A stretch of DNA of 64,000 nucleotides from Zeimonas sediminis. GTDB lineage: Bacteria; Pseudomonadota; Gammaproteobacteria; Burkholderiales; Burkholderiaceae_E. Positions 30,694 to 55,409 of this stretch are shown piece after piece. The notes under the pieces are model-generated. The model did no database searches and had not been told where the DNA came from. It worked only from the letters and a program-made list of their open reading frames with translations. The stretch spans positions 124,001 through 188,000 of the forward strand of contig NZ_JAMQYE010000001.1 in the NCBI RefSeq assembly GCF_023721795.1, read 5' to 3'. The translations under genes were made by a program, and so were the position numbers. Each line of letters begins with the position of its first letter. Position 1 is the stretch's first letter.

Positions 30694-30716
30694 TACGCAT
30701 TACAGTACCGAAATAC
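30694..30716 (-). promoter_or_regulatory. Shared 23-bp element, copy A (kor/bcr)
   Basis: On the minus strand it reads GTATT-TCG-GTAC-TGT-AATGCGTA. It matches copy B (55387-55409) at 17 of 23 positions. It includes TGTAAT (30699-30704), a good -10 for leftward korA transcription, so a protein bound here would block RNA polymerase. Candidate operator for the local Rrf2 (BadM-like) regulator; that assignment is inference. Confidence 0.6.
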
Positions 30717-30812
30717 AAGAATAATCACGGCGAGCGCGCAGGTCAACACCGCGAAGCGGGGAACGGACGAAGGAATCGAGGCGGCGAGCGAAGGCCGCGA
30801 TTGGGGGCAACG

Positions 30813-31994
30813 ATGACGAACGAAACAGGATCCGTGCAGCAGATCGTCGGCCGCTGCCAGGCGCTGTTCGAGGATCTCGACTTCGGCGCGGTGAAGGCCT
30901 GGAAGGCCGCCGAGCCCGGCCGCAAGGCGATCGGCTACATGCCGGTCTACGTGCCGCGCGAGCTGGTCCACGCGGCCGGCATGCTGCCCGTCGGCATCCT
31001 CGGCGGCGGCGACCAGCTCGAGGTGATCCAGGGCGACGCCTACTACCAGAGCTACATCTGCCGGATCCCGCGCTCGACGATCGAGCTCGGCCTGACCGGC
31101 CGTCTCGACTGCCTCGACGGCATGCTGTTCCCGTCGATCTGCGACGTGATCCGCAACCTGTCGGGCATGTGGCAGCTGATGTTCAAGGACAAGTACGTCC
31201 GTTACTTCGACGTGCCGCAGAACTACCAGGACGAGGTCGGTGGCCGCTTCTATGTCGAGGAGCTCGAGGTCCTGCGGCGCGACCTCGGCGAGCTGCGCGG
31301 CGCGCCGATCGGCGACGACGAGCTCAACGCGTCGATCGCGGTGTACAACGAGAACCGCCGCGCGATCCGCGAGCTCTACGCCTACCGGGCGGCCAGGCCG
31401 TGGCAGGCGCCGACCTCCGAGGTCTACCTGGTGCTGCGCGCAGGCATGGTCCTGCCGCCGGAGGAGCACACCCGGCTGGTTCGCGACTACCTGGCCGCGA
31501 CCGACGCGGTGTCCAGGCCGATGCGCGACAACGCGCGAATCGTGATCAACGGCTCGTTCTGCGAGCAGCCCCCGCTGAGCCTGATCAAGTCGATCGAGCT
31601 GTCGGGCTGCTACATCGTCGACGACGACTTCATGCTGGTGACCCGCTGGCTGCTCGACGACGTGCCCGAGGACGGCAAGCCGCTCGAGGAACTCTCCAGG
31701 GCCTTCCTGCACCGCTCGGCCTCGACCGCCGCGAAGTACGACGCGCGGCGCGAGGACAAGGGGCAGTTCCTGCTCAGGCAGGTCAAGGGCGCTGCCGCAG
31801 AGGGGGTCGTGTTCGCGGCGCCGTCGTTCTGCGACCCGGCCCTCCTGGAGCGACCGATGCTGCAGGACGTGCTCGCGAAGCACGGCGTTCCGTACACCGC
31901 CTTCAAGTACGCGGAGAACACCGGCCAGATGGCGCCGATCCGGGAGCAGTCGGGAACCTTCGCAGACTCGATCAAACTCTGGAGCGCAGCATGA
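30813..31994 (+). CDS. bcrC: Benzoyl-CoA reductase gamma subunit (BcrC)
   Basis: 393 residues of the 2-hydroxyacyl-CoA dehydratase D-component (HgdB) family. Landmarks are [60 protein letters not shown] and [21 protein letters not shown]; the Cys residues are candidate [4Fe-4S] ligands and the protein helps form the benzoyl-CoA site with BcrB. I start at ATG 30813. It overlaps bcrB by 4 bases. Size and order fit the Thauera bcrCBAD type. An FNR box and the shared element lie upstream. Confidence 0.93.
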
Positions 31995-33304
31995 GCACCG
32001 TCGCCACGCCCGCGAGCGGCCGCAAGCCGGAAGTCCAGAAAGAGGACGCGATGTGGCTCCAGAAGGAGCTGATCAATCGCAACTACGCCGAGCTCGCGCG
32101 GGCGCGCGCCGAGAACCGCAAGGTGTCGGCGACCTTCGTGCCCGGCAACCTGAACGAGCTGCTGATGTGCTTCGACTTCGCGCGCAGCCTGCCCGAGACG
32201 AACGCGCTGCAGAACGGCATGCGCAAGAAGTCCGGCAAGTTCATCATGGACGCAGAGCGCGAAGGCCAGTCCGAGGACGTCTGCACCTACGTGAAGGCCG
32301 ACCTCGGGATGATGCAGGGCGGCGAGGTCGGCCCGACCGGCGAGCCGCTGCCGCGGCCCGACGTGCTGCTGCTGTCCTACACCGGCTGCTTCACCTTCAT
32401 GAAGTGGTTCGAGCTGATCCGTCACAAGTACGGCTGCGAGACGGTCATGCTGCACGTGCCCTACCAGGGCGAGGGCAGGATCGCGCCGAACATGCGCGAC
32501 TACGTGGTGCGGCAGCTCAAGGAATCGGTGATCCCGACGCTCGAGCGCATCTCCGGCGTGAAGTTCGACATCGACCGTCTGCGCGAGTACATGAAGGAGT
32601 CGGCGAAGGCCGAGGAGGACCTGGTCGCGGTGCTGCAGTCCGCGAAGAACCGCCCCTCGCCGATCGACGGCTACTTCGGCGCCGTCTACTACATCGGCCC
32701 GATCTTCACCGCCTTCCGCGGCACGCCGGAGGCCACGCAGTACTACCGGCAGCTTCGCGGCGAGATCGAGGAGCGGGTCCGGCTGGGCAAGGGGCCGGTC
32801 ACGCCCGACGGCGAGATGGGCGAGGAGCGGTACCGGCTGATCGTCGAGGGGCCGCCGAACTGGACCAGCTTCCGCGACTTCTGGAAGATGTTCTACGACG
32901 AGGGCGCGGTCGTGGTCTCGTCCACCTACGCGAAGGTCGGCGGGCTCTACGACTTCGGCTTCCGGCACGACCCCGACCATCCGCTCGAGTCGCTGGCCGA
33001 GTACTGCCTCGGCTGCTACACCAACCTGAACCTGCCGTCGCGCGTCGACATGATCTGCCGGTACATCGAGGAGTACCAGGCGGACGGCCTGCTGATCAAC
33101 TCGATCAAGAGCTGCAACAGCTTCTCGGCCGGCCAGTTGCTGATCCTGCGCGAGGTGGAGAAGCGCACCGGCAAGCCGGCGGCCTTCATCGAGACCGACC
33201 TGGTCGACCCGCGCTACTTCTCGGCGGCCAACGTCAAGAACCGCCTGGAGAGCTACTTCCAGATGGTCAGGCAAAAGCGCGGCGCCGCGGTCGGCGCCCA
33301 CTGA
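31991..33304 (+). CDS. bcrB: Benzoyl-CoA reductase beta subunit (BcrB)
   Basis: 437 residues, HgdB family. [82 protein letters not shown] and [15 protein letters not shown] segments hold the candidate cluster cysteines. With BcrC it binds benzoyl-CoA and carries out Birch-like reduction to the cyclic dienoyl-CoA. It starts in an ATGA overlap with bcrC and is followed by an AAGGAGG ribosome site for bcrA. Confidence 0.94.
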
Positions 33305-33315
33305 AGGAGGCCGCC

Positions 33316-34656
33316 ATGCGTTGCTTCATCGGCATCGACCTGGGATCGACGACGACCAAGGCGGTCGTCCTCGACGAGCAGCAGAACGTGATCGGGCGGG
33401 GCATCACCAATTCCCGCTCGAACTACGACACCGCGGCCGCGATCGCCAAGCAGGAGGCGCTGGTCAACGGCCGCTTCCACCTGTTCCGGCAGGCGCTCGC
33501 GCAGACCGGCGCGCTGAACGGCCAGCTCGAGGGGTTCCTGGCGCAGCTCGAGCGCGACTTCCGCGCCGAGCAGTACCTCGAGCAGCTGGACGACCTCGCC
33601 GTGACCTGCCAACGGAGCCTGGCGAGCGCGAAGTTCGGCGACGACGCGAAGGTGGTCGGCGAGGCGCTCGACGAGGTCTTCCGGCGCATTGCCGCCGAGG
33701 CCCCGGCCCTGTTCGCGCCCGGCGCGCGCCGCAAGTCGGACTTCTTCCGCGACATCGCCGGCAGCCAGTACCTGGCCGCGGGCGAGGCGGTCGCCAAGGA
33801 GCTCGGCATCCGCTACGACTACCTGCTGAACGTGTTCGACCGATCGATCATCGAGGTCGAGAACCGGGTCTACGCGGGATCGATCCGTCGCCACCTGCTG
33901 GCCGCGCTGGAGCGCACCTTCGAAGCGATGCCCGGGACCGCCGGGCGGCGCACGCAGGTCGAGGCGCCGGTCAAGGGGATCCTCGATACCGAGATGGAGG
34001 AGACCTACGTGGTCGGCACCGGCTACGGCCGCGCCCGGCTGCCGTTTTCGAAGGAGCACGTTCGCTCGGAGATCCTGTGCCACGGGCTGGGCGCGCACGT
34101 GATGTACCCGCAGACCGCCACCGTGCTCGACATCGGCGGGCAGGACACCAAGGCGATCCAGGTCGACCCGACCGGCATCGTCGAGAGCTTCCAGATGAAC
34201 GATCGCTGCGCGGCCGGCTGCGGACGCTACCTCGGCTACATCGCCGACGAGATGAACATGGGCCTGCACGAGCTCGGGCCCCTGGCGATGAAGTCGACGA
34301 AGACGGTCCGGATCAACTCGACCTGCACCGTGTTCGCGGGGGCCGAGCTGCGCGACCGGCTCGCGCTCGGGGACAAGCGCGAGGACATCATGGCCGGGCT
34401 GCACCGATCGATCATCCTGCGCGCGATGTCGATCCTGGCCCGCTCGGGCGGGATCCGCAACGAGTTCACCTTCACCGGCGGCGTGGCCAAGAACGAGGCG
34501 GCGGTCAAGGCGCTGAAGGAGCTGGTGTTCGAGAACTACGGCGAGATGACGCTCAACATCGATCCCGACTCGATCTACACCGGCGCGCTGGGCGGGGCGA
34601 CCTTCGCCTGGCGGGCGGTGGTCGAGGAGGGCAAGACCGCCGAGGCGCGGGCCTGA
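33316..34656 (+). CDS. bcrA: Benzoyl-CoA reductase alpha subunit, ATPase (BcrA)
   Basis: 446 residues of the BadF/BcrA ATPase family (actin/Hsp70-like fold). The N-terminal phosphate loop is [35 protein letters not shown] and [12 protein letters not shown] carry the second nucleotide loop and the Cys residues for a [4Fe-4S] cluster shared with BcrD. It couples ATP hydrolysis to low-potential electron transfer. The long N-terminal half (about 45-225) distinguishes it from BcrD. Strong AAGGAGG at 33304-33310. Confidence 0.94.
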
Positions 34657-34682
34657 GCCGTGCGCACGAACGGGAGAACGCA

Positions 34683-35519
34683 ATGACCTGCACGATCGGA
34701 ATCGACATCGGCTCGGGCGCGGTCAAGACCGTGCTGTTCGAGGTGGACGGAGACAGGCAGACCTGGCTCGCGAAGCGCTGCGAGCGGATCCGCCGCCGCG
34801 ACCCGATGCAGCTGGCCGAGGAGGGGCGCGACGGCGTGCTGGCCGACGCCGGCCTGGACCCCTCGGCGGTGGACTACATCGCGACCACCGGCGAGGGCGA
34901 GAACGTGGCCTTCGCGACCGGTCACTTCTACTCGATGACCACGCACGCGCGCGGCGGGGTCTTCCTGCACCCCGGGGCGCGGGCGGTCGTCGACATCGGG
35001 GCCCTGAACGGGCGGGCGATCTACGTCGACGAGCGCGGCAAGGTGCTCGCCTACAAGATGACCAGCCAGTGCGCGTCGGGCTCCGGGCAGTTCCTCGAGA
35101 ACATCGCGCGCTACCTGGGCGTGGCGGTCGAGGAGATCGGTCCGCTGTCGCAGAGCTCCGAGGACCCGGAGAAGGTCAGCTCGATCTGCGCGGTGCTGGC
35201 CGAGACCGACGTGATCAACATGGTCTCGCGCAGCATCGCGCCGGCCGACATCCTGAAGGGAATCCACCTGTCGATGGCCTCCAGGATCATCAAGCTGCTG
35301 AAGGTGACCGGCATCAAGGAGGGCACCGCGCTGATGACCGGCGGGCTCGCGCTCGACACCGGCCTGATCGCCGCGCTGCGCGAGGAAATCGCGAACGAGA
35401 AGACCGCGGTCGAGATCGTGAACCATCCGGACTCGATCTACGCCGGCGCGATCGGCGCGGCGCTGTGGGGCGCGTTCCGGCACGGCCGGCTGGCCGCGCT
35501 GCAGGCGCAGGCGGCCTGA
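34683..35519 (+). CDS. bcrD: Benzoyl-CoA reductase delta subunit, ATPase (BcrD)
   Basis: 278 residues, short BadG/BcrD-type ATPase. GIDIGSGAVKTVLFE is the phosphate-1 loop, VVDIGALNGRAI the phosphate-2 loop, CASGSGQFLENIA and SSICAVLAETD carry the bridging-cluster cysteines, and LMTGGLALDTGL the adenosine motif. It pairs with BcrA as the electron activator accepting electrons from ferredoxin. It follows bcrA after 26 bases; 108 bases then precede the ferredoxin gene. Confidence 0.94.
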   Translation: MTCTIGIDIGSGAVKTVLFEVDGDRQTWLAKRCERIRRRDPMQLAEEGRDGVLADAGLDPSAVDYIATTGEGENVAFATGHFYSMTTHARGGVFLHPGARAVVDIGALNGRAIYVDERGKVLAYKMTSQCASGSGQFLENIARYLGVAVEEIGPLSQSSEDPEKVSSICAVLAETDVINMVSRSIAPADILKGIHLSMASRIIKLLKVTGIKEGTALMTGGLALDTGLIAALREEIANEKTAVEIVNHPDSIYAGAIGAALWGAFRHGRLAALQAQAA

Positions 35520-35529
35520 GGTGCGTCGA

Positions 35530-35590
35530 CGCGGGCGCCCGCCCGGGCCCGCCGGGCGACGCGACCGTCGAACACCGGTGTCGAACACCG
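35530..35590. repeat. GC palindrome plus 11-bp direct repeats before the ferredoxin gene
   Basis: The 108-base gap between bcrD and the ferredoxin gene contains a 12-bp perfect palindrome GCGGGCGCCCGC (35531-35542) and two direct copies of GTCGAACACCG (35567-35577 and 35580-35590) spaced by 13 bases. The hairpin may separate mRNA segments for bcr and ferredoxin; the direct repeats could be a protein site. Function is not shown. Confidence 0.5.
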
Positions 35591-35627
35591 ATTCCCCGGA
35601 AATTGCCCAGACGAAAGGGAGGCCGAC

Positions 35628-35873
35628 ATGGCACTGACGATCAACGAGAACTGCACCGCCTGCGACGCCTGCAAGCCGGTCTGTCCGAACGACGCGATCA
35701 GCGTCGGCGACCCGGCCTACGTGATCGACCCGCTGCGCTGCACCGAGTGCGTCGGGGCAGAGGACGAGCCCCAGTGCATGCTGGTCTGTCCGGCCGACTG
35801 CATCGAGCCGCATCCGGACTTCCGCGAGACGCCAGAGGAACTGCTCGCGAAGTACGAGTCGCTTCACGGCTGA
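35628..35873 (+). CDS. 2[4Fe-4S] ferredoxin for benzoyl-CoA reductase
   Basis: 81 residues. Cluster I ligands are C9, C12, C15 and C19; cluster II has the unusual C38-x2-C41-x8-C50-x3-C54 spacing typical of the low-potential ferredoxins of the Thauera/Allochromatium class that serve benzoyl-CoA reductase. A C-terminal helical extension (ETPEELLAKYESLHG) is also typical. AGGGAGG precedes the ATG. It probably accepts electrons from KorAB. Its last 10 bases overlap the end of the convergent NnrS-like gene. Confidence 0.92.
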   Translation: MALTINENCTACDACKPVCPNDAISVGDPAYVIDPLRCTECVGAEDEPQCMLVCPADCIEPHPDFRETPEELLAKYESLHG

Positions 35874-37078
35874 CGCGCGCAGGCCTCCTTTTCCGCGCGG
35901 CGTTCCCGCGCGCCGGCGGCGACGGCCGCCGCGGTGCCGACGACGAAGGCTGCGAGCGCCAGCGCGTTCAGCAGGCCGCCGGTGCGAGACAGCGCGAACG
36001 CGCCGCTCGCGTCGCCGGCCAGCCTCAGCAGCAGCGACAGGTGCAGCAGTGCCAGCGGCAGGTAGAACCAGCGCCGATAGGGCACCGCGACGCGCAGCAC
36101 CGCCGGAAAGATGATCGGCGCGTGGCCGAGGACCATCGAGAACACGAATCCCAGCGCGAGCGCGTGTATTGCCGCGCCGTAGGCGGGGCTGCCCGGCGAC
36201 AGCCCGCCGGCGGCCGCGACGATCGCCCCGCCCAAGGCCAGCCAGGCGTAGCCGGCCAGCAGGCAAATCGCGATGAAGCGGGTCAGGCCCCCCTTGCGGA
36301 CGGTGCGGCGTGCGATGTCGTGGCGCAGCAGCCACGCCGCCAGCAGTACCAGCCCCGCGCCGAAGGCGGAGCCGGCCCACGGCCCGTCACCGGCGGCCAG
36401 CACGAACAGCATCAGCGCCAGCACCGCCCCGAACGCGAGCTTCGCCGCTTGCGAAGGCGGCATGAAGCGCGACAGTTCGAGCCGCTCGCCGGCGATCGTC
36501 AGCACCAGGAAGGCCATCCACCAGCCGGCGACCTCGTGGACGGCCGCGCCGGCGGCCCACAGCGCGGTCCCGAGCGGCCAGCAGGCCGCGGCCGCCGCCA
36601 TCGTGAAGGTGAACAGCGCCGGCTGCCGGCGAAGCACGTCGAGCGACGCGACGAGCAGGACCAGTCCGGCCAGGAACCAGGCGACGGCCGCCAGGCCGGC
36701 GGCGCTGCCGAGCGCCGGCAGTCCGGCGCCGCCGAGCGCGAGCATCGTTCCCGCGCCGGCCAGCAGCGGCCCCGAATAGGCCCACGGGCGCCCGATCGCA
36801 ACCGCGCGCTCCAGCGAGATCACCGTGCCGAAGAAACCGCAGACGACCAGCGGGCCGTGCAGACCCGCCGACTGCGCGGCGATGTCCGGCATGCTCCAGC
36901 CGAGCCGGGCAAGGCCTGCGCCGACGCCTGCCAGCAGCCCGGCGAAGCCCAGCACCAGGATCGGCGCCCGCCACGGCGGCGGGATTCCCCGGCTCGCCGG
37001 CTTGCCGGGTGGCGAGGTCGTGGTCGGGGCCGGGGTCGGCGCGGCCGGCCGCGCACCGCCTTGGGGGGACGCGGGCAC
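35864..37078 (-). CDS. NnrS-like polytopic membrane protein
   Basis: 404 residues, GTG start, with about 12 hydrophobic segments after a Pro-rich N-terminus. GAAIHALALGFVFSMVLGHAPIIFPAVLRV and the conserved histidines in membrane helices (LHGPLVVCGF, HEVAGWW) resemble NnrS-family heme/copper membrane proteins linked to nitric-oxide tolerance in denitrifiers. Family assignment is by appearance, not by search. It is the last gene of the hemerythrin-GNAT-DUF59 group. Confidence 0.6.
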   Translation of the reverse strand: MPASPQGGARPAAPTPAPTTTSPPGKPASRGIPPPWRAPILVLGFAGLLAGVGAGLARLGWSMPDIAAQSAGLHGPLVVCGFFGTVISLERAVAIGRPWAYSGPLLAGAGTMLALGGAGLPALGSAAGLAAVAWFLAGLVLLVASLDVLRRQPALFTFTMAAAAACWPLGTALWAAGAAVHEVAGWWMAFLVLTIAGERLELSRFMPPSQAAKLAFGAVLALMLFVLAAGDGPWAGSAFGAGLVLLAAWLLRHDIARRTVRKGGLTRFIAICLLAGYAWLALGGAIVAAAGGLSPGSPAYGAAIHALALGFVFSMVLGHAPIIFPAVLRVAVPYRRWFYLPLALLHLSLLLRLAGDASGAFALSRTGGLLNALALAAFVVGTAAAVAAGARERRAEKEACARQP

Positions 37079-37082: not shown

Positions 37083-37394
37083 CTACCAGCCGAAGTGCTC
37101 GCGGGCGATGCCGGTCATCCGGTCGGGCGTCCACGGCGGGTCCCAGACCAGCTCGATGTCGACGCGCGCGGTGTCGGGAACGAGTTCCGAGACGACCCGG
37201 CGCGCGGCCTCGACGATCATGTCGGCCATCGGGCAGGCGGCAGTGGTCATCGTCATCTCGACCCGGACCGAGTCCTCCGACACGTCGATGCCGTAGACGA
37301 GCCCGAGATCGACGATGTTCATGCCGGCTTCCGGGTCGTCGACCTGGCGCAGCGCCTCGCGCACCGCGTCGTCGTCGGGCATGCCCTCGATCAC
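37083..37394 (-). CDS. DUF59/MIP18 family iron-sulfur assembly-type protein
   Basis: 103 residues. The N-terminal VREALRQVDDPEAGMNIVDLGLVYGIDV and the Cys-containing MTTAACPMADMI are the DUF59 signature found in SufT, PaaD and related Fe-S maturation factors. I choose the GTG at 37394 because it overlaps the GNAT stop as GTGA and has GGGAG at a good distance; ATG 37382 is the alternative. It may help mature or repair Fe-S enzymes of this island. Confidence 0.75.
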   Translation of the reverse strand: MIEGMPDDDAVREALRQVDDPEAGMNIVDLGLVYGIDVSEDSVRVEMTMTTAACPMADMIVEAARRVVSELVPDTARVDIELVWDPPWTPDRMTGIAREHFGW

Positions 37395-38473
37395 TGTCGT
37401 GCTCCCGGCGCCACCGGCGCTCGCGGTTTCACCGGCCCGCCGAGGCGTCTGGCGAAGGCGAGCCGCTGCGAGGGTGCGAAGCCGGCGTCGTACAGGAAGC
37501 CCTGCAGCGCCAGGTCCTGCGGCGCGACCTGGGTCTCCACGCGTTCGATCCGCAGCGCCGCGAGGTTCAGGAACAACTGCGACAGCAGCGCGTGGCCCAC
37601 GCCGCGGTGGGCGTATTCCGGATCGACGCCGATCGTGTCGATGACCGCCACCGGCTCGGTGCGTCCGAAATCGCCGAAGTCGGCGCGGGCCATCACGAAG
37701 CCGACCACGACGCCGTCCAGCCGCGCGCCCAGCGAGACGCGCAGCGCCGAATCCGCGAGCGTCTCGCCGAGCTTGCGCGCCATGTAGTCGCGCCGGTCCC
37801 GCCCGGTGATGCCGCGATCGATGCGGGCCAGATCGGGCAGGTCGGCGGGCTCGAGCGCCCGGATGTCGGCGGTGTCGCGCGCCAGGCGCTCGAAGTCGTT
37901 CGACTCGCCGCGGCCGTAGTCGATCTCGCGAACCGGCGGCGCTCCCGGCAGCACCGGACCGGGCGAGGCGTCGCCGACGGCGCCCTCGGGCTCGTTCGCG
38001 ATCGTGTCGATCTCCCCGTGGACCGGGCGGTCGACCACGTGGGCCGCAGCGAGCGAGAACCCGGCTGCGTCGAGCCAGCCGAGCATGCGGTGCGCGTTCC
38101 AGGCGGCCTGGGTGCGGAGGTCCGGAACCCCGTGGCGGCCGGCCCATCCGGCGAGCCCGTCGAACAGCAGCCGGCCGATGCCGCGGCCGCGCGCGTCGGC
38201 GCGAACGCCGATCGCCTCCAGGCGAAGGCTGCGGTCGCGCTGCCCGAACTCGCCCTCTAGCACTCGTGCCAGCACGTAGCCGGCGAGGCCGCGGGCGTCG
38301 CGCACCGCGAACTGGGCATGCAGCCCCGGCTCGCGCAAGGCGGCGGCCAGCCGCCGCTCGAAGTAGAGCCGCCGCGAGCGGCCTTCCCAGGCCGCGTCGA
38401 TCGCGACGACGTCCTCGAGATCGTCGCCCGCCAGCGGGCCCAGGGTGTCCTGGTGGGCAGCAGCGTTGTCCAT
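37391..38473 (-). CDS. Tandem GNAT-domain acetyltransferase
   Basis: 360 residues with two GNAT domains. In the first (about 15-150), acetyl-CoA loop-like GVRADARGRGIGRLL; in the second (about 205-350), GVDPEYAHRGVGHALL. Both halves, like the single-domain GNAT at 55449-55937, begin with a DL-x4-ID-x4-G-x3-R/D-Y pattern, indicating a paralogous family. BadL of Rhodopseudomonas is a related GNAT encoded with benzoate genes. The substrate is unknown; lysine acetylation of CoA-ligases is a possible role. It follows hemerythrin after 34 bases and is GTGA-coupled to DUF59. Confidence 0.8.
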   Translation of the reverse strand: MDNAAAHQDTLGPLAGDDLEDVVAIDAAWEGRSRRLYFERRLAAALREPGLHAQFAVRDARGLAGYVLARVLEGEFGQRDRSLRLEAIGVRADARGRGIGRLLFDGLAGWAGRHGVPDLRTQAAWNAHRMLGWLDAAGFSLAAAHVVDRPVHGEIDTIANEPEGAVGDASPGPVLPGAPPVREIDYGRGESNDFERLARDTADIRALEPADLPDLARIDRGITGRDRRDYMARKLGETLADSALRVSLGARLDGVVVGFVMARADFGDFGRTEPVAVIDTIGVDPEYAHRGVGHALLSQLFLNLAALRIERVETQVAPQDLALQGFLYDAGFAPSQRLAFARRLGGPVKPRAPVAPGARQ

Positions 38474-38507: not shown

Positions 38508-39002
38508 TCAGCCGGCCGCGTAGGCGAAGGCGAGTTCGCGATCGGTGTCTTCGTCGAGCAGGTCGTCGAGCATCGGCAGAAGGGCCATCGTTTCCTTCTG
38601 GATGTGGGAGACCTGCCGCTCGACGATCTCCAGCGCGCCGACCTTCAGCGCATTCCAGCCCGAGTCGTCCAGCACGCCTTCGGCGGCAGCGCGCGCCAGC
38701 GGCAGCGTCGAGCGGGCGGCGTCGCGGATCGCGGCATGCTCGTCGGCGAGCAGGCCGGCGATGTCGGCTTCCCCGGCCTCGGCCAGAAGCGGGAACAGCT
38801 GCTGCTCCTCGAAATCGAAGTGCCGCTCGAGCTCTTGCTCGAGATGCCGGGCGAGGGCGGCCGCGATCCGTGCGAGCTCGGGGTCGCCGCCGGCGCCGGA
38901 CCGGGGCAGGCGCGCGAAGGCCTGCTCGACCTTGCCGAGCAGGTCGAGGTTGACGCGGTGCTCCTCGTCGAGCGCGTGGCTGACCTGACGCTGGAAATTC
39001 AT
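38508..39002 (-). CDS. Hemerythrin-like (HHE domain) protein
   Basis: 164 residues, all-helical. Candidate diiron ligands recur as DEEHR, HLEQELERHFDFEEQQLF, DEHAAIR and HIQKETMALLPML. Bacterial single-domain hemerythrins bind O2 or NO and are often linked to denitrification and Fe-S repair. It heads a minus-strand group hemerythrin-GNAT-DUF59-NnrS-like and has copy C of the 23-bp element just upstream of its ATG. Confidence 0.8.
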   Translation of the reverse strand: MNFQRQVSHALDEEHRVNLDLLGKVEQAFARLPRSGAGGDPELARIAAALARHLEQELERHFDFEEQQLFPLLAEAGEADIAGLLADEHAAIRDAARSTLPLARAAAEGVLDDSGWNALKVGALEIVERQVSHIQKETMALLPMLDDLLDEDTDRELAFAYAAG

Positions 39003-39015
39003 GCCGACCCCAATT

Positions 39016-44604: not shown

Positions 44605-44608
44605 CGCC

Positions 44609-47485: not shown

Positions 47486-50250
47486 CGCGCAACCCTCCCG
47501 ATGCTGACCCGCACGATGTCGGCGCTCGAGCCGGTCGCGTCGGTGAGCGCGATCGACATCGGCGCGAGCGTGTTCAGGCTCGGCATGCCGAAGTCCCTGG
47601 CGAAGGGCGTGGCCCAGTGGTCGAACTGCCCGATCAGCAGCAAGGTGTCCGGCCGGATGCCCTGCCTCAGCACCGCGCGGCCGCGCACGCTGCGCGCGGG
47701 CGTCGCGATCTCGACCTCGTCGCCCTCGGCGATGCCGAGCCGTTCGGCGGTCCCGGCGTTCACGATCACGCCGCGGTGGCCCGCGATGTTGTCGGCGACC
47801 TCGCGGATCATCTGCACGCCCACGTTGCCGCCCCACGCGTACTGCATGCTGCGCGCGGTCAGCAGCCAGAACGGGTAGTCCCCGGCCTTTCCGCCGCCGA
47901 GCGTCACCGCGTTCTCCCAGATGCCCGGGAAGTCCTTCCAGACCGGCAGCGCCTGGTACTCGGCCATCTGCCGGTCCCACCAGTGCATGCCCTTCTCGTG
48001 CAGCCGCCTGCCGAGCTCCTCGCCGATCCGCATGAGCCGCTCCTGGTACGGAAGCTCGAAGCGAAGGCCGCGCTCGACCATCGTCGGGTACAGGTACCAG
48101 TCGCTGCGCGGGAAGGGGCGCGTGGCGAGCCCGTGCTCCCGCCACCAGTCCAGCCCGTGCGCCTTCTCGCCGTCGGTCAGCTCGCTGCTCGCCGCGCGGC
48201 AGACCGCGTCCCAGATGCGCTCGCGATCGTGCACCTCGCCGGGGTCCAGCGAGAAGTCGTGATGCTCGCCCTTCAACGGCACGCCGGCCGCGCCCTTGTT
48301 GATCGACCTGACGTAGGCTTCGGTCAGGCCGGTCCGGCGGGCCAGTTCGGTCGCGACGTCGGTGAAGTCGCGGGCCTGTCCGCGCGCGTCGATCGCCGGC
48401 TGGCGCAGCGCGAAGCCTTCGTGGTCCCAGAACTGCTCGACGTACTTGGTGCCGCCGATCCGGATCAGCTGCAGGCTCTCCAGGTCGGTCGCGTCGGGCA
48501 GCAGGATGTCGGCGAAGTGGTTGGTCTCGTCGCGGGTGTAGGCGAAGCAGACCACGAACGGGAAGCGCGCCATCTTGTCGGCGACCGCGTGGGTGTCCCA
48601 GAACGAGATCGCCGGGTTGGTGCGGTACACGAACCAGACGTCCGGGAAGGTCACCTCGGGCAGGCCCTCGGGCGTGCCGTCGAGGAACATCCACGAGAAG
48701 TGGGTCGGGCCGAGCGCCTGGCTCCAGGCGCCGTTGCCGGCCAGCGGCACCATGGTCCGGTAGGCGTTGCGGATGTTCGGCCGGGCCGACCATCCCTCGC
48801 GGTCGGTCGGGTTGAGCGGATAGTCCATGAAGCCGTCGGGCCCCGGCTTCGCGCTGTCGAGCCGCTGCGCCATCGGCCGGGCTAGCCTCACCGTGGTGCC
48901 GATCGTGCCGCCCGGCACCTCGAGCGCCCCGACGAGCGCCGCCAGCATCGTTCGCGCCCAGCAGCACTCGAAGCCGCCCCAGCCGTTGTTCACGGTCTTG
49001 CCCAGCGTGACCGCGACCGGCCGGAACGGCAGCTCCTTGCCATCGATCGTGATCGTCCGGCCCACGCAGGCGTGGTCCAGGTACTCGTTGGCGATGCGCC
49101 GGATGTCGGCCGCCGGCACGTCGCAGATCGCCGACGCCCACTCCGGCGTGTACCGAGCCATGTGCGCGAGCAGCTTGCGGAACGCCGTCTCGCCCGCGAG
49201 CCGGCCCTCGGCCAGGACCTCCCCGTCGGGGCCGGTCTCGATCGCGTCGGTCTCCACCGAGGCGTCGAGGTCCTCGTGCAGCCCGGGGGTGTCGTGCGGC
49301 ACCGCGGCGCCGCTTTGCGCATCGCGCACCAGCGGCTTGCCGCTCGCCCGGTCGCGCAGGTAGTAGCCGTTCGGCCCGACCAGGTAGGCCGAGCCGGTGC
49401 GCACCCGCAGGAAGGGCAGGTCCAGCCGCTCGCGCTGCGCCTCGTGCAGCAGCACGTTGATCAGCGCGTACAGGAAGGCCGCGTCGGTCTTCGGCCTGAT
49501 CGGCACCCAGCGGGCCGAGCAGGCGCCGGTCACCGACAGGTGGGGCTCGACCTGAACCCGCTTCATGCCGCGCACCCGCGCCTGGGAATGCCGCCAGATG
49601 CCGACCACGCCGCCCGAGGCCTCGATGTTGGAGCCGCAGGAGATCAGGTAGTCGCACAGCGGCGTGTCGGCCGACACGATGAAGGCCCGGTGCCAGAACT
49701 CGCCGTACAGGTGCTCGGAGTGGTAGCACTTCACGCCTTGGCCGGAGCCGAAGCCCATGTCGACCGGCCCCCAGGCGGCCAGGAAGGCCGGGAAGGTGCC
49801 CATGTAGGACTGCGGGGTGCCGCCGCCGCCGAAGCTGGCCGCGAGCCGCGGGTAGCCGGAGGCATCGGTGAGCCCGGTCTCGCGGATCCGGTTCAGGCGC
49901 TCGGCGATCGCCTCGAAGGCCTCTTCCCAGCTGATCGGAACGAAGCCCGGGTCCTCGTCGCGTCCCTTCCTCGGGTTGGTCCGGCGCATCGGCGTCAGCA
50001 CCCGGTTCGGGTTGTACGTCTTCTGCACCAGGCCGAAGGCCTTCACGCAGACCTTCCCGCCGCCCGGGTGGACCGGGGCGGCGCAGAAGTTCGGCTCGAC
50101 CTCGGTGGCGACGCCGTCGACGACCTTCACGGTGAGCAGGTCGGGGCCGGCGACGCACTGGTAGCAGTAGGTCGGCACCCGCCGCTCGCCGGGGCGCGGC
50201 GCGCCGCTCCCGGGACCGTGCGCGGCCATCGTGGCGGCAGGCGTCGTCAC
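47482..50250 (-). CDS. padB: Molybdopterin oxidoreductase, PadB-like phenylacetyl-CoA:acceptor oxidoreductase catalytic subunit
   Basis: 922 residues, DMSO-reductase family. The N-terminal [4Fe-4S] motif is C29-x2-C32-x23-C56-x11-C68. No Tat signal is seen, so the protein is probably cytoplasmic, as known for the Thauera enzyme. It oxidises the alpha-carbon of phenylacetyl-CoA to phenylglyoxylate with four electrons. The GTG start at 50250 overlaps the thioesterase stop (GTGA). Order with padC, padD and the ligase supports the role, but other arylacetyl-CoA substrates are possible. Confidence 0.8.
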   Translation of the reverse strand: MTTPAATMAAHGPGSGAPRPGERRVPTYCYQCVAGPDLLTVKVVDGVATEVEPNFCAAPVHPGGGKVCVKAFGLVQKTYNPNRVLTPMRRTNPRKGRDEDPGFVPISWEEAFEAIAERLNRIRETGLTDASGYPRLAASFGGGGTPQSYMGTFPAFLAAWGPVDMGFGSGQGVKCYHSEHLYGEFWHRAFIVSADTPLCDYLISCGSNIEASGGVVGIWRHSQARVRGMKRVQVEPHLSVTGACSARWVPIRPKTDAAFLYALINVLLHEAQRERLDLPFLRVRTGSAYLVGPNGYYLRDRASGKPLVRDAQSGAAVPHDTPGLHEDLDASVETDAIETGPDGEVLAEGRLAGETAFRKLLAHMARYTPEWASAICDVPAADIRRIANEYLDHACVGRTITIDGKELPFRPVAVTLGKTVNNGWGGFECCWARTMLAALVGALEVPGGTIGTTVRLARPMAQRLDSAKPGPDGFMDYPLNPTDREGWSARPNIRNAYRTMVPLAGNGAWSQALGPTHFSWMFLDGTPEGLPEVTFPDVWFVYRTNPAISFWDTHAVADKMARFPFVVCFAYTRDETNHFADILLPDATDLESLQLIRIGGTKYVEQFWDHEGFALRQPAIDARGQARDFTDVATELARRTGLTEAYVRSINKGAAGVPLKGEHHDFSLDPGEVHDRERIWDAVCRAASSELTDGEKAHGLDWWREHGLATRPFPRSDWYLYPTMVERGLRFELPYQERLMRIGEELGRRLHEKGMHWWDRQMAEYQALPVWKDFPGIWENAVTLGGGKAGDYPFWLLTARSMQYAWGGNVGVQMIREVADNIAGHRGVIVNAGTAERLGIAEGDEVEIATPARSVRGRAVLRQGIRPDTLLLIGQFDHWATPFARDFGMPSLNTLAPMSIALTDATGSSADIVRVSIGRVAR

Positions 50251-50651
50251 AGCCCGGCCTTCTTCGCCTTGGCGGCCAGGCGCTCGGCGGTCTTCGCCAC
50301 GTCGACGACGAAGCGGTGGTGGCGGCCGCGGCAGATCGCGTCGATGCCGTCGGTGCCGGCGAACTCGAACACGACGGCTCGGCCGTTCGTCTCGACGACG
50401 CTCACCGTCAGCTCGACGGTCATGCCGAGCAGCGTGGCGGCCAGGTGATCGATCTCCACCCGCGTGCCCACCGAGTCCTCGCCCGGATCCAGGTGCTCCA
50501 GAAGCAGTTCCCGGCAGGCGATCTCGAGGTCCTGCACCAGCATCGGCGTCGCGTAGACGCGCGCCTGCTCGCCCATGAAGTCGATCGTTCGCGCGCGATC
50601 CACGACGATCCGCGAGCTCCGGGTCGTGCCTGCCGCCAGGGATGGTTTCAT
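50247..50651 (-). CDS. FlK-like hot-dog thioesterase coupled to padB
   Basis: 134 residues. Thr35, Glu43 and His69 reproduce the Thr-Glu-His spacing (8 and 26 residues) of fluoroacetyl-CoA thioesterase FlK, in YATPMLVQDLE and VEIDHLA. The gene overlaps padB by 4 bases, suggesting a function in the same reaction, for example hydrolysis of phenylglyoxyl-CoA. In the Thauera enzyme the CoA ester is hydrolysed within the PadBCD reaction, so a separate thioesterase would be a variation or a clean-up activity. It lies 37 bases after livF. Confidence 0.7.
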   Translation of the reverse strand: MKPSLAAGTTRSSRIVVDRARTIDFMGEQARVYATPMLVQDLEIACRELLLEHLDPGEDSVGTRVEIDHLAATLLGMTVELTVSVVETNGRAVVFEFAGTDGIDAICRGRHHRFVVDVAKTAERLAAKAKKAGL

Positions 50652-50688: not shown

Positions 50689-51390
50689 TCACAGGCCCAG
50701 GTAGGCCTCGCGGACCGCGTCGTCGTCGAGCAGCTCGCTGCCGCTTCCGGTCAGCGCGATGCGCCCGACCTCGATCACGTAGGCGCGGTCGGCGATCGAC
50801 AGCGCCGCGCGCGCGTTCTGGTCGACCAGCAGGATCGTCGTGGCGGCCTGGCGCAGCGCGCGGATCGTCGCGAAGATCTCCGCCACCAGGCGCGGCGCCA
50901 GCCCCATGCTGGGCTCGTCGAGCAGCAGCAGGCGAGGGCGCGCCATCAGCGCCCGGCCGATCGCGAGCATCTGCTGCTGGCCGCCCGACAGGGTGCCGGC
51001 CGGTTCCTTGCGCTTCTGCGCGAGCACCGGGAACAGCGAGTAGACCTGCTCCAGGCTCCCGGCCACCTCGGCCGACGGGCGCACGAAGGCCCCGAGGCGC
51101 AGGTTGTCCTCGACCGGCAAGGGCGAGAACACTTGCCGACCCTCCGGAACCTGAACGATGCCCATGCGCACGCGCGCGCGCGGCGAGCTGCGCGTCACGT
51201 CGCGCCCTTCGAAGCCGACGCTGCCGCCGCAGGTCGGCTGGATGCCGGACAGCGCGCGCAGCAGCGTCGACTTGCCGGCGCCATTGGCGCCGACCAGCGC
51301 GACCAGCTCACCGCTGTCGACCCGCAGGCTGACGTCGTGCAGCGCGGTGATCCGGCCATAGCGGCTGCTCAGCGAGCTCACTTCAAGCAT
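50689..51390 (-). CDS. Branched-chain-type ABC transporter ATPase (LivF), set 1
   Basis: 233 residues. Walker A GANGAGKST, signature LSGGQQQM and Walker B LLLLDEPSMGL are present, with the LivF-type ending. It is one of two ATPases of the transporter encoded from 55205 downward. The set precedes padB and hcr, so an aromatic acid is a likelier substrate than a branched-chain amino acid. Overlaps livG by 8 bases. Confidence 0.88.
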   Translation of the reverse strand: MLEVSSLSSRYGRITALHDVSLRVDSGELVALVGANGAGKSTLLRALSGIQPTCGGSVGFEGRDVTRSSPRARVRMGIVQVPEGRQVFSPLPVEDNLRLGAFVRPSAEVAGSLEQVYSLFPVLAQKRKEPAGTLSGGQQQMLAIGRALMARPRLLLLDEPSMGLAPRLVAEIFATIRALRQAATTILLVDQNARAALSIADRAYVIEVGRIALTGSGSELLDDDAVREAYLGL

Positions 51391-52165
51391 CGGCGGCCTC
51401 CGCGGCGTCGACCGTGCCGAGATAGGCCTCGATGACGCGTGGGTCGCTCCCGATCTGCCGGGCCGTCCCTTCGCTGAGCTTGCGGCCGTGATCGAGCACC
51501 AGGATGCTGTCGGAGACGCCCATCACCAGGCGCATGTTGTGCTCGACCAGCACGACGGTGGTGCCGGCCTCGCAGAGCCTGCGAATCAGCGCGGCGACCT
51601 CCCCGGACTCGGTCGGGTTCAGGCCGGCGGCCGGCTCGTCGAGCAGCAGGATCCTCGGCTCGCCGGCCAGCGCGCGGGCGATCTCGAGCCGCTTGAGCGC
51701 GCCGTAGGGCATCGTGTCCGCGCTCGCGTCGGCGAGGCCCTCGAGCCCGACGAAGCGCAGCAGCTCGCGCGCCCGCTCTCGGCAGGCCCGCTCGGCGCGC
51801 TGCCGGGAAGGGGTCGGCACCAGGCTCGCGAGCAGGCCGCAGGCCTCGTGCAGGTGGCGCCCGGTCATCACGTTCTCGAGCGCGCTCATGTTGAAGAACA
51901 CCTGCAGGTTCTGGAAGGTCCTGCCGATGCCGGCGGCCGCGAACCGGTGCGGCGGCTGCCCGGTGAGCTCGCGGCCGTCGAGAGCGATGCTGCCGGCGCT
52001 GGGCCGGTAGATGCCGGTCAACAGGTTCAGCAGCGTCGTCTTGCCCGCCCCGTTCGGGCCGATGATCGACTGGACGATGCCGTGCGGGATCGTGAACGAC
52101 AGGTCCTGCACCGCGTGCACGCCGCCGAACGCGCGGGAGACCCGGCTGACCTCGAGCCCGCTCAC
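51383..52165 (-). CDS. Branched-chain-type ABC transporter ATPase (LivG), set 1
   Basis: 260 residues. Walker A GPNGAGKTT, a diverged signature region (DTMPYGALKRLEIARAL) and Walker B ILLLDEPAAGLNP fit LivG. The start is the GTG at 52165, overlapping the livM stop as GTGA. The canonical LSGGQ is replaced by MPYGALK, as is common in LivG. Confidence 0.85.
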   Translation of the reverse strand: MSGLEVSRVSRAFGGVHAVQDLSFTIPHGIVQSIIGPNGAGKTTLLNLLTGIYRPSAGSIALDGRELTGQPPHRFAAAGIGRTFQNLQVFFNMSALENVMTGRHLHEACGLLASLVPTPSRQRAERACRERARELLRFVGLEGLADASADTMPYGALKRLEIARALAGEPRILLLDEPAAGLNPTESGEVAALIRRLCEAGTTVVLVEHNMRLVMGVSDSILVLDHGRKLSEGTARQIGSDPRVIEAYLGTVDAAEAADA

Positions 52166-53160
52166 GACGAGCGCCTCCGCAGCCAGGACTCCAGGGTCGG
52201 CACGGCCCCGCGGGGAAAGAAGATCATCGTCGCCATCATGACCGCGCCGAAGACCACCATCTCGTACTCCCTGACCGCGGTCAGCGCTTGCGGAAGGATG
52301 GTCAGCACCGCGGCGCCGACGACGGCGCCGAAGGTCGAGGCCATGCCGCCGAAGACCACCATCGTCACCAGCTCGACCGAGTGCAGGAAGGAGGCCTTGT
52401 CCGGCGTGACGAAGCCGCTGTAGAAGGCGGTCAGGCCGCCGGCCAGCGCGGCGAACACGGCCGAGAGCACGAAGACCTCCAGCTTGCGCCGCGCGCTGTC
52501 GATGCCGACCACCTCGGCGGCGATCTCCGAGCCGTGCAGCGCCCGCAGCGCGCGGCCGGCCGGCGATTCGATCAGGTTCAGCGCGAGCCAGACCGCGACG
52601 AACAGGCAGGCGCCGACGAGCCAGTACCAGGCCTGCTCCCCCTGGACCAGGTGGCCGAGCACGGTGAAGGGCGGGACCGCCATGCCGTCGGGGCCGCCGG
52701 TGATCCGGTCCTCGTTGGCGATCACGATCGACACGATGACGCCGAGCCCGAGCGTGGCCATCGCCAGGTAGTGACCCTTCAGGCGCAGGATGGGCCGGCC
52801 GACGGCGAAGGCGAGCACGGCCACGCCCGCGGCCGCCAGCGGCAGCGCCGCGAGCGGCGGCACGCCGTAGCGCGAGCAGAGCAGCGCCGAGCCGTAGGCG
52901 CCGAGCCCGAAGAAGCCGGCGTGGCCGAGGCTGATCTGGCCCGCGTAGCCGATCAGCAGGTTCAGGCCCACGCAGACGATCGCGTTCAGGCCGACCAGGA
53001 TCGCGACGTCGTAGAAGTAGTCGTTGGCGAGCACCAGCGGCGCCAGCACGATCACGAGCGCCAGCGCGGCCAACCCCCCGGTGCGCGGCGAGGCCCACCG
53101 GCGACGGTCGGCGGGGCGCCGTTCAGACGCGTTCGCTCCTGACTGCACCAAGGATTCCAT
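52162..53160 (-). CDS. Branched-chain-type ABC transporter permease (LivM), set 1
   Basis: 332 residues with about eight to nine membrane segments; GYAGQISLGHAGFFGLGAY and the EAA-like loop region ALRALHGSEIAAEVVGID are LivM features. The start at 53160 lies 38 bases inside livH, a larger overlap than usual. Confidence 0.85.
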   Translation of the reverse strand: MESLVQSGANASERRPADRRRWASPRTGGLAALALVIVLAPLVLANDYFYDVAILVGLNAIVCVGLNLLIGYAGQISLGHAGFFGLGAYGSALLCSRYGVPPLAALPLAAAGVAVLAFAVGRPILRLKGHYLAMATLGLGVIVSIVIANEDRITGGPDGMAVPPFTVLGHLVQGEQAWYWLVGACLFVAVWLALNLIESPAGRALRALHGSEIAAEVVGIDSARRKLEVFVLSAVFAALAGGLTAFYSGFVTPDKASFLHSVELVTMVVFGGMASTFGAVVGAAVLTILPQALTAVREYEMVVFGAVMMATMIFFPRGAVPTLESWLRRRSS

Positions 53161-53998
53161 CGGGTCTGACGAAGAGGACTGCGAGGATGATCAGGAAGGC
53201 GATCACGTCCTTGTAGGCCGAGGACACGTAGCCGGCCCCGAGGCTCTCGAGCAGGCCGAGCAGCAGGCCGCCGGCGATCGCCCCCGGGAAGCTGCCGATC
53301 CCGCCCAGGATCGCGGCGGCGAATCCCTTCAGGCCGAGCATGATCCCGGCCTCGTAGGAGGTGAAGGTGATCGGCGCGATCAGCACGCCGGCGGCGGCGC
53401 CCAGCGCCGCGGCCAGCCCGAAGCTGGCGAACAGGACGGTCCGCACCTCGATGCCGACCAGTTGCGCGGCGGTGCGGTTGCAGGCGGTGGCGAGCATCGC
53501 CTTGCCGGGAAGGGTGCGCCGGAAGAACCACGACAGGGCGGCCACGATCACGATCGTGACGCCGATCACCCACAGGCTCTGCGGCAGGATCGTCGCCCCG
53601 AAGAACTCGATCGGCGTGTCCCCGGACAGCGGCGCCAGCGCGTGGATGCGCTTGTCCCACACGAGCTGGGCCAGCCCGCGCAGGAAGATCGACGCGCCGA
53701 TCGTGATGATGATCAGGGTGACCACGTCGGCGCTGCGCGCGCGCCCCACCGCCAGGCGCTCGAGCAGCAGGCCGACCACCGCGGCGACGGCCACGGCCCC
53801 GGCGATCGCCAGCGGCATCGGGGCGCCGGCCGCGACCAGCGACACGGCGCTCATGCCGCCGATCATCACGAACTCGCCCTGAGCGAAGTTGATGACCCGG
53901 CTCGCGTTGAAGATGATCGAGAAGCCGAGCGCCACCAGCGCGTAGATCGAGCCCGCCGTCAGGCCGCTGGCCAGGAACTGGACCCACTGTCCGCTCAT
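53123..53998 (-). CDS. Branched-chain-type ABC transporter permease (LivH), set 1
   Basis: 291 residues with about eight membrane segments. ASRVINFAQGEFVMIGGMSAV at about 36-56 is the LivH signature. It follows the binding-protein gene by 40 bases and heads the permease-ATPase part of the operon. Confidence 0.87.
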   Translation of the reverse strand: MSGQWVQFLASGLTAGSIYALVALGFSIIFNASRVINFAQGEFVMIGGMSAVSLVAAGAPMPLAIAGAVAVAAVVGLLLERLAVGRARSADVVTLIIITIGASIFLRGLAQLVWDKRIHALAPLSGDTPIEFFGATILPQSLWVIGVTIVIVAALSWFFRRTLPGKAMLATACNRTAAQLVGIEVRTVLFASFGLAAALGAAAGVLIAPITFTSYEAGIMLGLKGFAAAILGGIGSFPGAIAGGLLLGLLESLGAGYVSSAYKDVIAFLIILAVLFVRPDGILGAVRSERV

Positions 53999-54038
53999 CT
54001 CGGTCCCCGTTCTCGGGCAGGCGCGTCCGCCGCTTCGC

Positions 54039-55205
54039 CTACTTCACGACGGTCCAGGCGCCGTTGCGGATCTCCAGCATCTGGAAGGCGCTGAGGTCCA
54101 GGCCCATGTGGTCGGCCGGCCCCATGTTCACCACCCCGCCGGTGCCCACGTATCCCTTGGTCTTCTCGATCTCGTCGCGGACCTTCTGCCTGTCGGTGCC
54201 GCCTGCTCGCTTGATCGCCTCGACCGCCAGCATCAGGCCGTCGTAGGCGTGGCCGCCGAAGGTCGACACGTCGGACTTGAAGCGCTCCTCGTAGTCGCGC
54301 TTGTAGGCGACGACCACCGGCTTCTGCGGATTGCCCGCGGGCAGGATGTCCGCCACCAGCAGCGCGGCGGCGGGCAGCCGCACGCCCTCGGCCGCGGCGC
54401 CGGCCAGCTTGATGAACTCCTTGGACGCGACGCCGTGCGACTGGTACAGGGGCAGCGTGATTCCGAGCTGCGCGTAGTTCTTCGTGACGATCGCCGGGCC
54501 CTGGCCGAAGCCGGCGTTGAGCACGGCCTGCACGCCGGGCGTGCCCTTGATCTTCGTGAGCTGCGCGGTCATGTCGGTGTCGGCCGCGCCGTAGCTTTCG
54601 TCGGCGACGATCTCGATGCCGTACTTCGGCGCCACCTTCGTGCACTCGCCGCGCATCGACCGGTCGAAGCCGCCGGCGCCGGAGATCAGCGCCAGCTTGT
54701 CCAGCTTGCGCGCGTTCATGTCGGTGAAGATCTTCTCGCAGGCCATCCGGTCGGTGTGCGGCGTCTTGAACACCCACTTCTTGACCGGCTCGACGATCAC
54801 GACCGCGCCGGCCAGCGAGACGAACGGGACCTGCGCCTGCTCGACCAGCGGCACCGCGGCCATCGTCTCGCCGGTCGTGGAGCCGCCGACGATCAGGTCG
54901 ACCTTGTCCTGCTCGATCAGGCGCTTGGTGAAGGTCCGCGCCTTCTCGGCGCTTCCGCCGCTGTCGTAGACGAAGAGCTGCAGCTTGCGACCCAGCACGC
55001 CGCCGGACGCGTTGATCCGCTCGACGTACATCTCCAGCGTCTTCTGCTCAGGGTCGCCGAGGAAGGAGGCCGGACCGGTGGCGGCGAGGAAGGAGCCGAT
55101 CCTGATCGGTTCCTGCGCGACGGCGGGGGCCGCGGCGCAGAGCGCGGCGGCCAGCGCCGCGGCGGCGATGCGAGGGGCGTGGCGGGAGCTTCCAGTCGAA
55201 CGCAT
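54039..55205 (-). CDS. Periplasmic substrate-binding protein of ABC transporter set 1
   Basis: 388 residues from ATG 55205 (AGGAG upstream). A signal peptide (about 1-30, ALCAAAPAVAQ) precedes a type I periplasmic binding fold of the LivK-like family (RIGSFLAATGPASFLGDPEQKTLEMYVERINASGG). It is the first gene of the long leftward unit leading to padBCD and hcrCAB, so it probably binds an aromatic acid. Its 243-base upstream region carries copy B of the 23-bp element and an FNR box. Confidence 0.85.
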   Translation of the reverse strand: MRSTGSSRHAPRIAAAALAAALCAAAPAVAQEPIRIGSFLAATGPASFLGDPEQKTLEMYVERINASGGVLGRKLQLFVYDSGGSAEKARTFTKRLIEQDKVDLIVGGSTTGETMAAVPLVEQAQVPFVSLAGAVVIVEPVKKWVFKTPHTDRMACEKIFTDMNARKLDKLALISGAGGFDRSMRGECTKVAPKYGIEIVADESYGAADTDMTAQLTKIKGTPGVQAVLNAGFGQGPAIVTKNYAQLGITLPLYQSHGVASKEFIKLAGAAAEGVRLPAAALLVADILPAGNPQKPVVVAYKRDYEERFKSDVSTFGGHAYDGLMLAVEAIKRAGGTDRQKVRDEIEKTKGYVGTGGVVNMGPADHMGLDLSAFQMLEIRNGAWTVVK

Positions 55206-55386
55206 GTCTGTCTCCTGACGTTGTCGGACACGCTCCGCGCGCGGTGCATGCCACTGGTGCAACTTCTTCGACCCGACCTCGTGCGCCGCGGTGCGCGGTG
55301 GCAGCCATGGCTGCGCCGCCGCTTCCGGTATCCTCCGCGACAGTGATCGACAGCCGGGGCTGCGTCACCGTTCGCCATCTGCGTTT

Positions 55387-55409
55387 TACGCATTCTGGTA
55401 CGATAATAC
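55387..55409 (-). promoter_or_regulatory. Shared 23-bp element, copy B, overlapping the leftward promoter
   Basis: Minus strand reads GTATT-ATC-GTAC-CAG-AATGCGTA, 17 of 23 identical to copy A. CAGAAT (55392-55397) inside it is positioned as a -10 exactly 32 bases from the centre of the FNR box, the distance expected for a class II FNR-activated promoter with its start near 55385. A repressor bound here would sit between FNR and RNA polymerase. Confidence 0.6.

Follow-up and report, generated by a model that had tools for sequence, protein, structure and literature searches.

Three control regions in a 64,000-nucleotide stretch of the genome of the betaproteobacterium Zeimonas sediminis (contig NZ_JAMQYE010000001.1, positions 124,001 to 188,000; hereafter the window, numbered from its first letter) share an inverted repeat. 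These sites are very probably operators of BadM, an Rrf2-family regulator encoded in the same window at 55952-56410, which would act as a repressor together with an FNR/AadR-type activator on composite promoters. The dyads are assigned to BadM because of the layout of dyad and activator box in the badD promoter of Rhodopseudomonas-like genomes, the published binding of BadM in Rhodopseudomonas palustris and the invariant residues in the recognition region of the protein. An earlier note on this DNA had proposed an Rrf2-controlled aromatic regulon from a shared 23-bp element, and the comparative evidence supports that proposal, in that the dyad tracks the gene pair badL-badM across genomes and the badD promoter carries it.

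Sequence and form of the element

The earlier note had placed three 23-mers on the minus strand, and all were found there: GTATTTCGGTACTGTAATGCGTA at 30716-30694 (operator A), GTATTTTGGTATTCGAATACCGT at 39038-39016 (operator B) and GTATTATCGTACCAGAATGCGTA at 55409-55387 (operator C). Its A/B/C letters did not follow coordinate order, because the pair that agrees at 17 of 23 positions and shares AATGCGTA is formed by the copies at 30694 and 55387, and the perfect inner palindrome GGTATTCGAATACC belongs to the copy at 39016; similarity and palindrome are real, and only the lettering attached to them was crossed. When both strands of the window were scanned, the motif also matched the opposite strand at each of the three places. 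A minus-strand label has no meaning for such an element, because the motif is a dyad, and a strand-specific 23-bp element was rejected in favour of a 20-bp inverted repeat, GYATTnnRGTACYnnAATRC.

All three sites are predicted operators of BadM type and are strandless. Operator A has its core dyad at 30697-30716 (GCATTACAGTACCGAAATAC on the plus strand), between the divergent korAB and bcrCBAD genes. Operator B (39011-39038), at the hemerythrin promoter, consists of two overlapping dyads with an 8 bp offset, 39019-39038 and 39011-39030, the centre of the first lying about 26 bp ahead of the hemerythrin ATG. Operator C has its core dyad at 55390-55409, between the ABC transporter gene livK1 and badL-badM.

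Specificity of the element in the genome

Allowing up to two mismatches, the window gave eight strand-wise matches, none of them outside the three places; dinucleotide shuffles would give 0.16. Exact matches to the motif number three in the 3.86-Mb genome, every one inside the window. With up to one mismatch, the genome holds nine strand-wise matches, seven of them at the three places and two elsewhere (571,353 and 1,747,559), and a reversed-pattern control gave none. The 20-bp dyad with three mismatches allowed was found at 13 places per strand against eight for the control; in this ranking the three sites lead with one mismatch, followed by 985,015 with two and by others with three. An additional near-match lies at 2,740,932. 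Another, at 2,730,857, was set aside; it is flanked by genes for an IclR-type regulator and for an enoyl-CoA-hydratase-like protein, and no FNR box accompanies it. With a scoring matrix trained on sites from other genus members, the three operators score 25.6-32.4, and no place in the window that does not overlap them exceeds 3.2. Frequent occurrence at unrelated promoters genome-wide, which had been named as fatal to the proposal, was not observed: outside the three places there are only near-matches, at about the level of the control.

Identity of the regulator

The gene at 55952-56410, which had been put forward as the candidate regulator, was the right candidate and, as judged from its sequence and position, is BadM. 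The protein has an Rrf2 winged-helix domain (Pfam Rrf2 91.3 bits, cut-off 30; NCBIfam rrf2_super 101.9 bits, cut-off 73.3). By sequence it matched 14 PDB entries, every one a regulator, or putative regulator, of Rrf2 type. By predicted fold (mean predicted local distance difference test score of 87) the matches that carry a name, at E up to 0.001, are RsrR, IscR, CymR and NsrR. The gene badL (55500-55937) lies directly upstream, and each of the 80 named BadM loci used (the best 80 of 121) has a match to badL. Identity to Rhodopseudomonas-like BadM is 52 % by alignment and 48 % by tblastn; the three other Rrf2-like matches in the same genome show 27-33 % identity to the window protein, which resembles Rhodopseudomonas-like BadM more than it does these Rrf2 proteins. 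The recognition-region residues S37, H40, L41, K43, V44, L48, R58 and G59 are identical in 48/48 aligned BadM proteins. The translated sequence is cysteine-free, as the earlier note had said, and lacks the cluster-ligating cysteines of IscR and NsrR; any cysteine at all occurs in 12 of the 48 aligned proteins, unconserved.

The badD promoter of Rhodopseudomonas-like genomes

The badD promoter in four of four Rhodopseudomonas-like genomes consists of an FNR/AadR box, 10 bp and the dyad (GCATTCTAATACTAGATTAC in G643); the distance from box centre to dyad centre was computed as 27 bp in three, and the same layout was read from the sequence of the fourth. Site C in the window has this layout with the same 27-bp spacing. 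In R. palustris, BadM represses badDEFGAB and binds a badD fragment from -191 to +21 in gel shifts, acetamidobenzoates made by BadL bind BadM and lower its affinity, and deletion of badM in a badL mutant brings back badDEFGAB transcription (PMC6191541).

A strict form of the pattern was found in three of the four Rhodopseudomonas-like genomes, at badD and one further site, and in G658 at none. In G713 the further site (L283:10531-14456) has an FNR box and a dyad 26 bp apart, before genes for an alcohol dehydrogenase and a hydrolase and boxC, a hint that BadM may touch the aerobic box pathway there too; judged by similarity, G643 (L284) has this dyad with these neighbours as well.

FNR/AadR-type boxes and their spacing

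Each of the three promoters has a second component that was absent from the earlier note, a box for an activator of FNR/AadR type as recognized by its sequence. Only four TTGAN6TCAA boxes occur in the window and three of them adjoin the three dyads, a coincidence of about 8e-7 by chance; these three have the form TTGAY-N4-RTCAA near a promoter. The box at A (TTGATCCAGATCAA, 30641-30654, plus strand) has its centre 59 bp from dyad A, the box at B (TTGACCCGGGTCAA, 39062-39075, minus strand) is 40 bp away from the first of the two B dyads, and the box at C (TTGATCAGGATCAA, 55420-55433, minus strand) lies 27 bp from dyad C. The fourth box, TTGATGCGGGTCAA at 24066-24079, is outside the aromatic cluster, between the plus-strand open reading frames 23434-24030 and 24144-24767, and has no dyad.

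Taking the window sites and those of relatives together, the distance from box to dyad is almost constant for each class of promoter. It is 27-28 bp in 17 of 35 livK/badL contexts, 22 bp in eight and 66 bp in one; 40 bp in eight of 10 hemerythrin contexts (own included), the other two having 61 and 37 bp; 57-61 bp in the korA/bcr contexts; and 46-48 bp ahead of a second bcr-like cluster described below.

Distribution in the genus

The genus regions read, which were mostly picked around motif matches (11 of 12 A regions were chosen for a match), have dyads at the same three places as the window. The interval between korA and the catabolic operon contains a dyad in all 12 regions, in 11 by the strict pattern and in G007 by a matrix score of 24.4. 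Behind this site had-oah-dch come first in nine of the 12 (one, L191, ends short of bcrC), and bcrC follows directly in three, as in the window. In G007, G001 and G016 the A region lacks had-oah-dch, and the genomes lack a true oah (TIGR03200). Upstream of the hemerythrin gene the strict pattern matched in nine of 10 regions, and the tenth, in G008 (L047), has a weaker site with a score of 22.0. The badM loci of 16 genus members and three more distant genomes (19 in all) were chosen by protein rather than by motif, and their best matrix scores were 11.2-30.0, some of these organisms having also served to train the matrix.

Nine genus members have a second bcr-like cluster (37-39 % identity to BcrC; L154:3045-5601, L156, L158 and L161-L166) with a dyad and an FNR box upstream. 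The same arrangement of dyad, FNR box and cluster was seen in two Rhodopseudomonas-family genomes chosen by the BcrC family model and not by motif (L269, score 22.7; L270, 19.1). The cluster of L154, the one that was scanned, did not reach the cut-off of any bcr or bzd family model. The second cluster is a candidate for a reductase of a different aromatic acyl-CoA, for instance 4-methylbenzoyl-CoA, with MbrCBAD of Magnetospirillum pMbN1 as an example (PMC4268860). A dyad also precedes a second padB-like gene in three genus members, with no exact FNR box.

A genus member without a BadM orthologue, G010, has no dyad with arms; its sole core match has neither arms nor an FNR box. G017 has BadM and no exact core match, with a best score of 17.9. 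A core match near ilvD (ATTCCGGTATCGCAAT or similar) in L155, L157 and L159 was set aside, having no symmetric GTA/TAC arms and no FNR box, and may reflect another regulator or chance. The long gene beside a similar match in L167 looks alike and is probably another such case; the family model confirmed ilvD in L155 only.

Distribution beyond the genus

From the named BadM loci, three of 80 were dropped for having too little upstream DNA, leaving 12 close and 65 distant loci, in which a site was called if the 350 bp ahead of badL held a matrix score of at least 14. Organisms of the close set had in part also served in training; by the 74 % cut those of the distant set had not. Sites before badL were called in 12/12 close and 40/65 distant loci. 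Column-shuffled symmetric matrices gave means of 0.13 and 0.33 for the close and distant sets, with maxima of 5 and 4; random windows of the same loci reached the cut-off in 2/120 and 18/650 cases, some of them possibly true sites. By pattern, 117 strand-wise matches against none for the reversed pattern were found, in 62/109 loci (some genomes counted twice).

Sites scoring at least 16 numbered 70 in the 80 loci, and 50 of these stood before badL. The other 20 were distributed among had/oah (eight), hemerythrin (five) and livK (two), with one each before hcrC, a GNAT360-like gene and badI, one within livG and one unassigned. In another family of the phylum, that of G198, which was taken as alphaproteobacterial and provided an independent test, the best match was 18.0-24.2 in 30/30 loci, representing 30 of 69 badM-bearing genomes and scored anywhere in the 2-3.4-kb locus. 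A close BadM relative is present in 69/75 genomes of this family, strikingly even for a benzoate regulator. Overall the dyad precedes badL-badM in many Beta- and Alphaproteobacteria, and elsewhere had-oah-dch-bcr, hemerythrin or transporter genes.

Proposed mechanism

FNR acts from -41.5, and start sites can be predicted from the boxes by this rule. The centre of the dyad would then lie at about -14.5 at C, -1.5 and +6.5 at B and +17.5 at A. If the rule holds, the dyad lies over the -10 or start region at B and C and just past the start at A. This layout fits activation at low oxygen combined with repression by BadM until an aromatic ligand appears.

In the proposed mechanism, an FNR/AadR-type activator on TTGA-N6-TCAA would recruit RNA polymerase at low oxygen, a BadM dimer on GYATTnnRGTACYnnAATRC would cover the -10/start region and block the promoter, and a ligand derived from the aromatic substrate would release BadM. 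Benzoyl-CoA, which the earlier note had named for a binding assay, is not the likeliest ligand: the compounds to which BadM is published to respond are acetamidobenzoates, products of BadL (PMC6191541), and if the window protein behaves as in R. palustris, such an acetamidobenzoate is the more likely inducer. The targets would be bcrCBAD with its ferredoxin gene, probably the divergent korAB, the hemerythrin-GNAT-sufT group, the badL-badM operon itself and the ABC transporter, perhaps together with the downstream pad-hcr genes. The hemerythrin may protect the reductase, which is sensitive to oxygen. A hemerythrin-type gene stands under other regulators in betaproteobacterial benzoate regulons, where its role was called unclear (PMC6449761).

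Weighing of the evidence

Several observations weigh against BadM as the repressor at these dyads. Dyad A sits past its predicted start. No FNR box was found near nine of the 35 badL dyads. Site counts in the genus are not rates, because the regions were mostly chosen for containing a match. The strict pattern misses G249, in which BadM and the cluster are present (matrix scores 20.8 and 16.1), as well as G658. The bare core ATTN3GTAYN3AAT is unspecific in AT-richer members of the order (for example 8 and 11 in G040 against 10 and 8 for the control), and it also occurs in BadM-less members of the family and the order, those retrieved being without an FNR box. In 25 of the 65 distant loci the score before badL was under the cut-off; L060, L061 and L069, at 69-71 % BadM identity, reached 12.6, 10.0 and 5.8. 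Among the loci below the cut-off, L099, L100, L102, L105 and L116 have a site before had/oah-dch-bcr instead, and L107 a weak one (14.1); in L099 and L100 had was assigned by reading the locus, the automated assignment having given the gene on the other side. Finally, 24 further Rhodopseudomonas-family bcrC loci, other than those of the four Rhodopseudomonas-like genomes and L269/L270, had a best score of 7.4 within the 1.5 kb covered.

Binding of the dyad by another regulator, such as a BadR-like protein of the MarR type or a different Rrf2 paralogue, with BadM just nearby, is improbable and is the most probable of the alternatives. Inverted repeats of this length suit MarR proteins too, and the genome has its three further Rrf2-like matches to supply a paralogue. 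Against this, the site accompanies badL-badM in Beta- and Alphaproteobacteria alike, the genus member that lacks badM also lacks an armed dyad, and the badD promoter carries the dyad, BadM being published to bind the corresponding promoter of R. palustris (PMC6191541). BadM might alternatively be an activator or a co-factor of the FNR-type protein, for which the position of dyad A can be adduced, 59 bp away from its FNR box and past the predicted start; this is less probable again, since dyads B and C overlap the predicted -10/start and the recovery of badDEFGAB transcription on deletion of badM in R. palustris (PMC6191541) is the behaviour of a repressor. That the likeness is chance, or the common -10/FNR make-up of AT-rich intergenic DNA, draws on the elements being AT-rich islands inside a window of 71 % G+C and on the unspecific bare core in AT-richer genomes, and is so improbable that it was rejected on the dinucleotide-shuffle, genome-wide reversed-pattern and shuffled-matrix controls and on the conservation of the dyads at non-syntenic places. 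BadM acting as a repressor at all three sites is the preferred reading.

Genes around the operators

Gene families were assigned with NCBIfam and Pfam models. The minus-strand korAB genes (27903-30463) encode a 2-oxoacid:ferredoxin oxidoreductase. Directly behind operator A, with 30717-30833 between, the plus-strand genes at 30834-35873 encode the ATP-dependent benzoyl-CoA reductase BcrCBAD and a ferredoxin. A search for had (TIGR03201, E up to 1e-50) gave no match in this genome, and as it gave none in any control genome either, the absence is unproven; the oah model (TIGR03200) scored 113 bits, which indicates no true oah, against 624-632 in G002 and G013.

The first gene behind operator B encodes a hemerythrin HHE protein (38508-39002, minus strand), followed on the same strand at 37083-38473 by a 360-aa GNAT-domain protein and an FeS-assembly (SufT-like) protein. 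Three neighbouring genes, at 39038-40390, 35864-36955 and 40394-40699, have no NCBIfam match, and the first two also no Pfam match; they recur next to hemerythrin or hcr in relatives.

A branched-chain-type ABC transporter (50689-55205, minus strand) forms the first predicted minus-strand operon behind operator C. Its binding protein (livK1, 54039-55205, minus strand) matched a family model; the labels livH, M, G and F for the four genes behind it are our own assumption, family models having been run on the binding protein only. Downstream on the minus strand, 40696-50576 holds a thioesterase gene, a padDCB-like molybdoenzyme set, a phenylacetate-CoA-ligase-like gene and hcrBAC (40696-44604), the genes of 4-hydroxybenzoyl-CoA reductase. 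The molybdoenzyme set we take to be pad from its gene context, as no pad family model matched.

On the plus strand, badL (55500-55937) encodes a GNAT acetyltransferase that is the presumed maker of the BadM ligand, a function taken from R. palustris (PMC6191541), and badM (55952-56410) the presumed binder of all three operators. A gene of the benzoate-CoA ligase family lies at 61796-63412 on the minus strand.

Relation to known systems

BadM, its repression of the bad operon and co-activation by an FNR-type protein are already known; a betaproteobacterial regulon that includes a hemerythrin and a transporter appears to extend this role. No BadM operator sequence was found in the literature searched, and one may be in print in Peres and Harwood 2006 or Hirakawa et al. 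2015. That search, outside which the primary BadM papers lay, also yielded no betaproteobacterial BadM regulon and no link between BadM and hemerythrin. None of these three appeared in the available parts of PMC6191541, PMC4263372, PMC4344238, PMC6974649, PMC6449761, PMC10803450, PMC6678401, PMC4424350 and PMC4268860. A 2024 study reports that, around benzoate-CoA ligase genes, it found BadM in alphaproteobacterial contexts alone (PMC10803450).

On balance we lean towards BadM as an old regulator common to Alpha- and Betaproteobacteria rather than the switch of one operon. One acetylated aromatic signal would connect uptake of the substrate with benzoyl-CoA reductase and with a hemerythrin that binds oxygen; in relatives it would also reach a second, uncharacterised enzyme resembling benzoyl-CoA reductase and perhaps a second PadB-like molybdoenzyme. 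An anaerobic FNR-type activator would mostly take part. With BadM and a definable operator in many Burkholderiales, the regulon would become predictable from DNA alone, shared regulation would connect the hemerythrin with the oxygen-sensitive benzoyl-CoA reductase, and sensor and promoter would form a compact pair for anaerobic aromatic metabolism.

The proposed system resembles those of BzdR/BoxR and BenR in controlling benzoate and benzoyl-CoA pathways, and some of those regulons also hold a hemerythrin gene (COG3945); these regulators belong to other protein families and recognize other sites than BadM (PMC6449761). The same betaproteobacterial survey found no BzdR/BoxR site ahead of had-oah-dch-bcrCBAD in Thauera sp. 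MZ1T, and its available text mentions neither BadM nor Rrf2 (PMC6449761). The window BadM has its sequence superfamily and predicted fold in common with IscR, NsrR, RsrR and CymR. IscR, NsrR and RsrR carry Fe-S clusters, and the window BadM differs from these three in having no cysteine.

The closest likeness is to BadM and badDEFGAB of R. palustris, where there is likewise an Rrf2 repressor beside BadL, a benzoyl-CoA reductase operon as target (presumed for the window) and a promoter with an FNR/AadR box and a dyad. Unlike that system, the window belongs to a betaproteobacterium, and its dyad also stands before the hemerythrin gene, the transporter genes and badL-badM.

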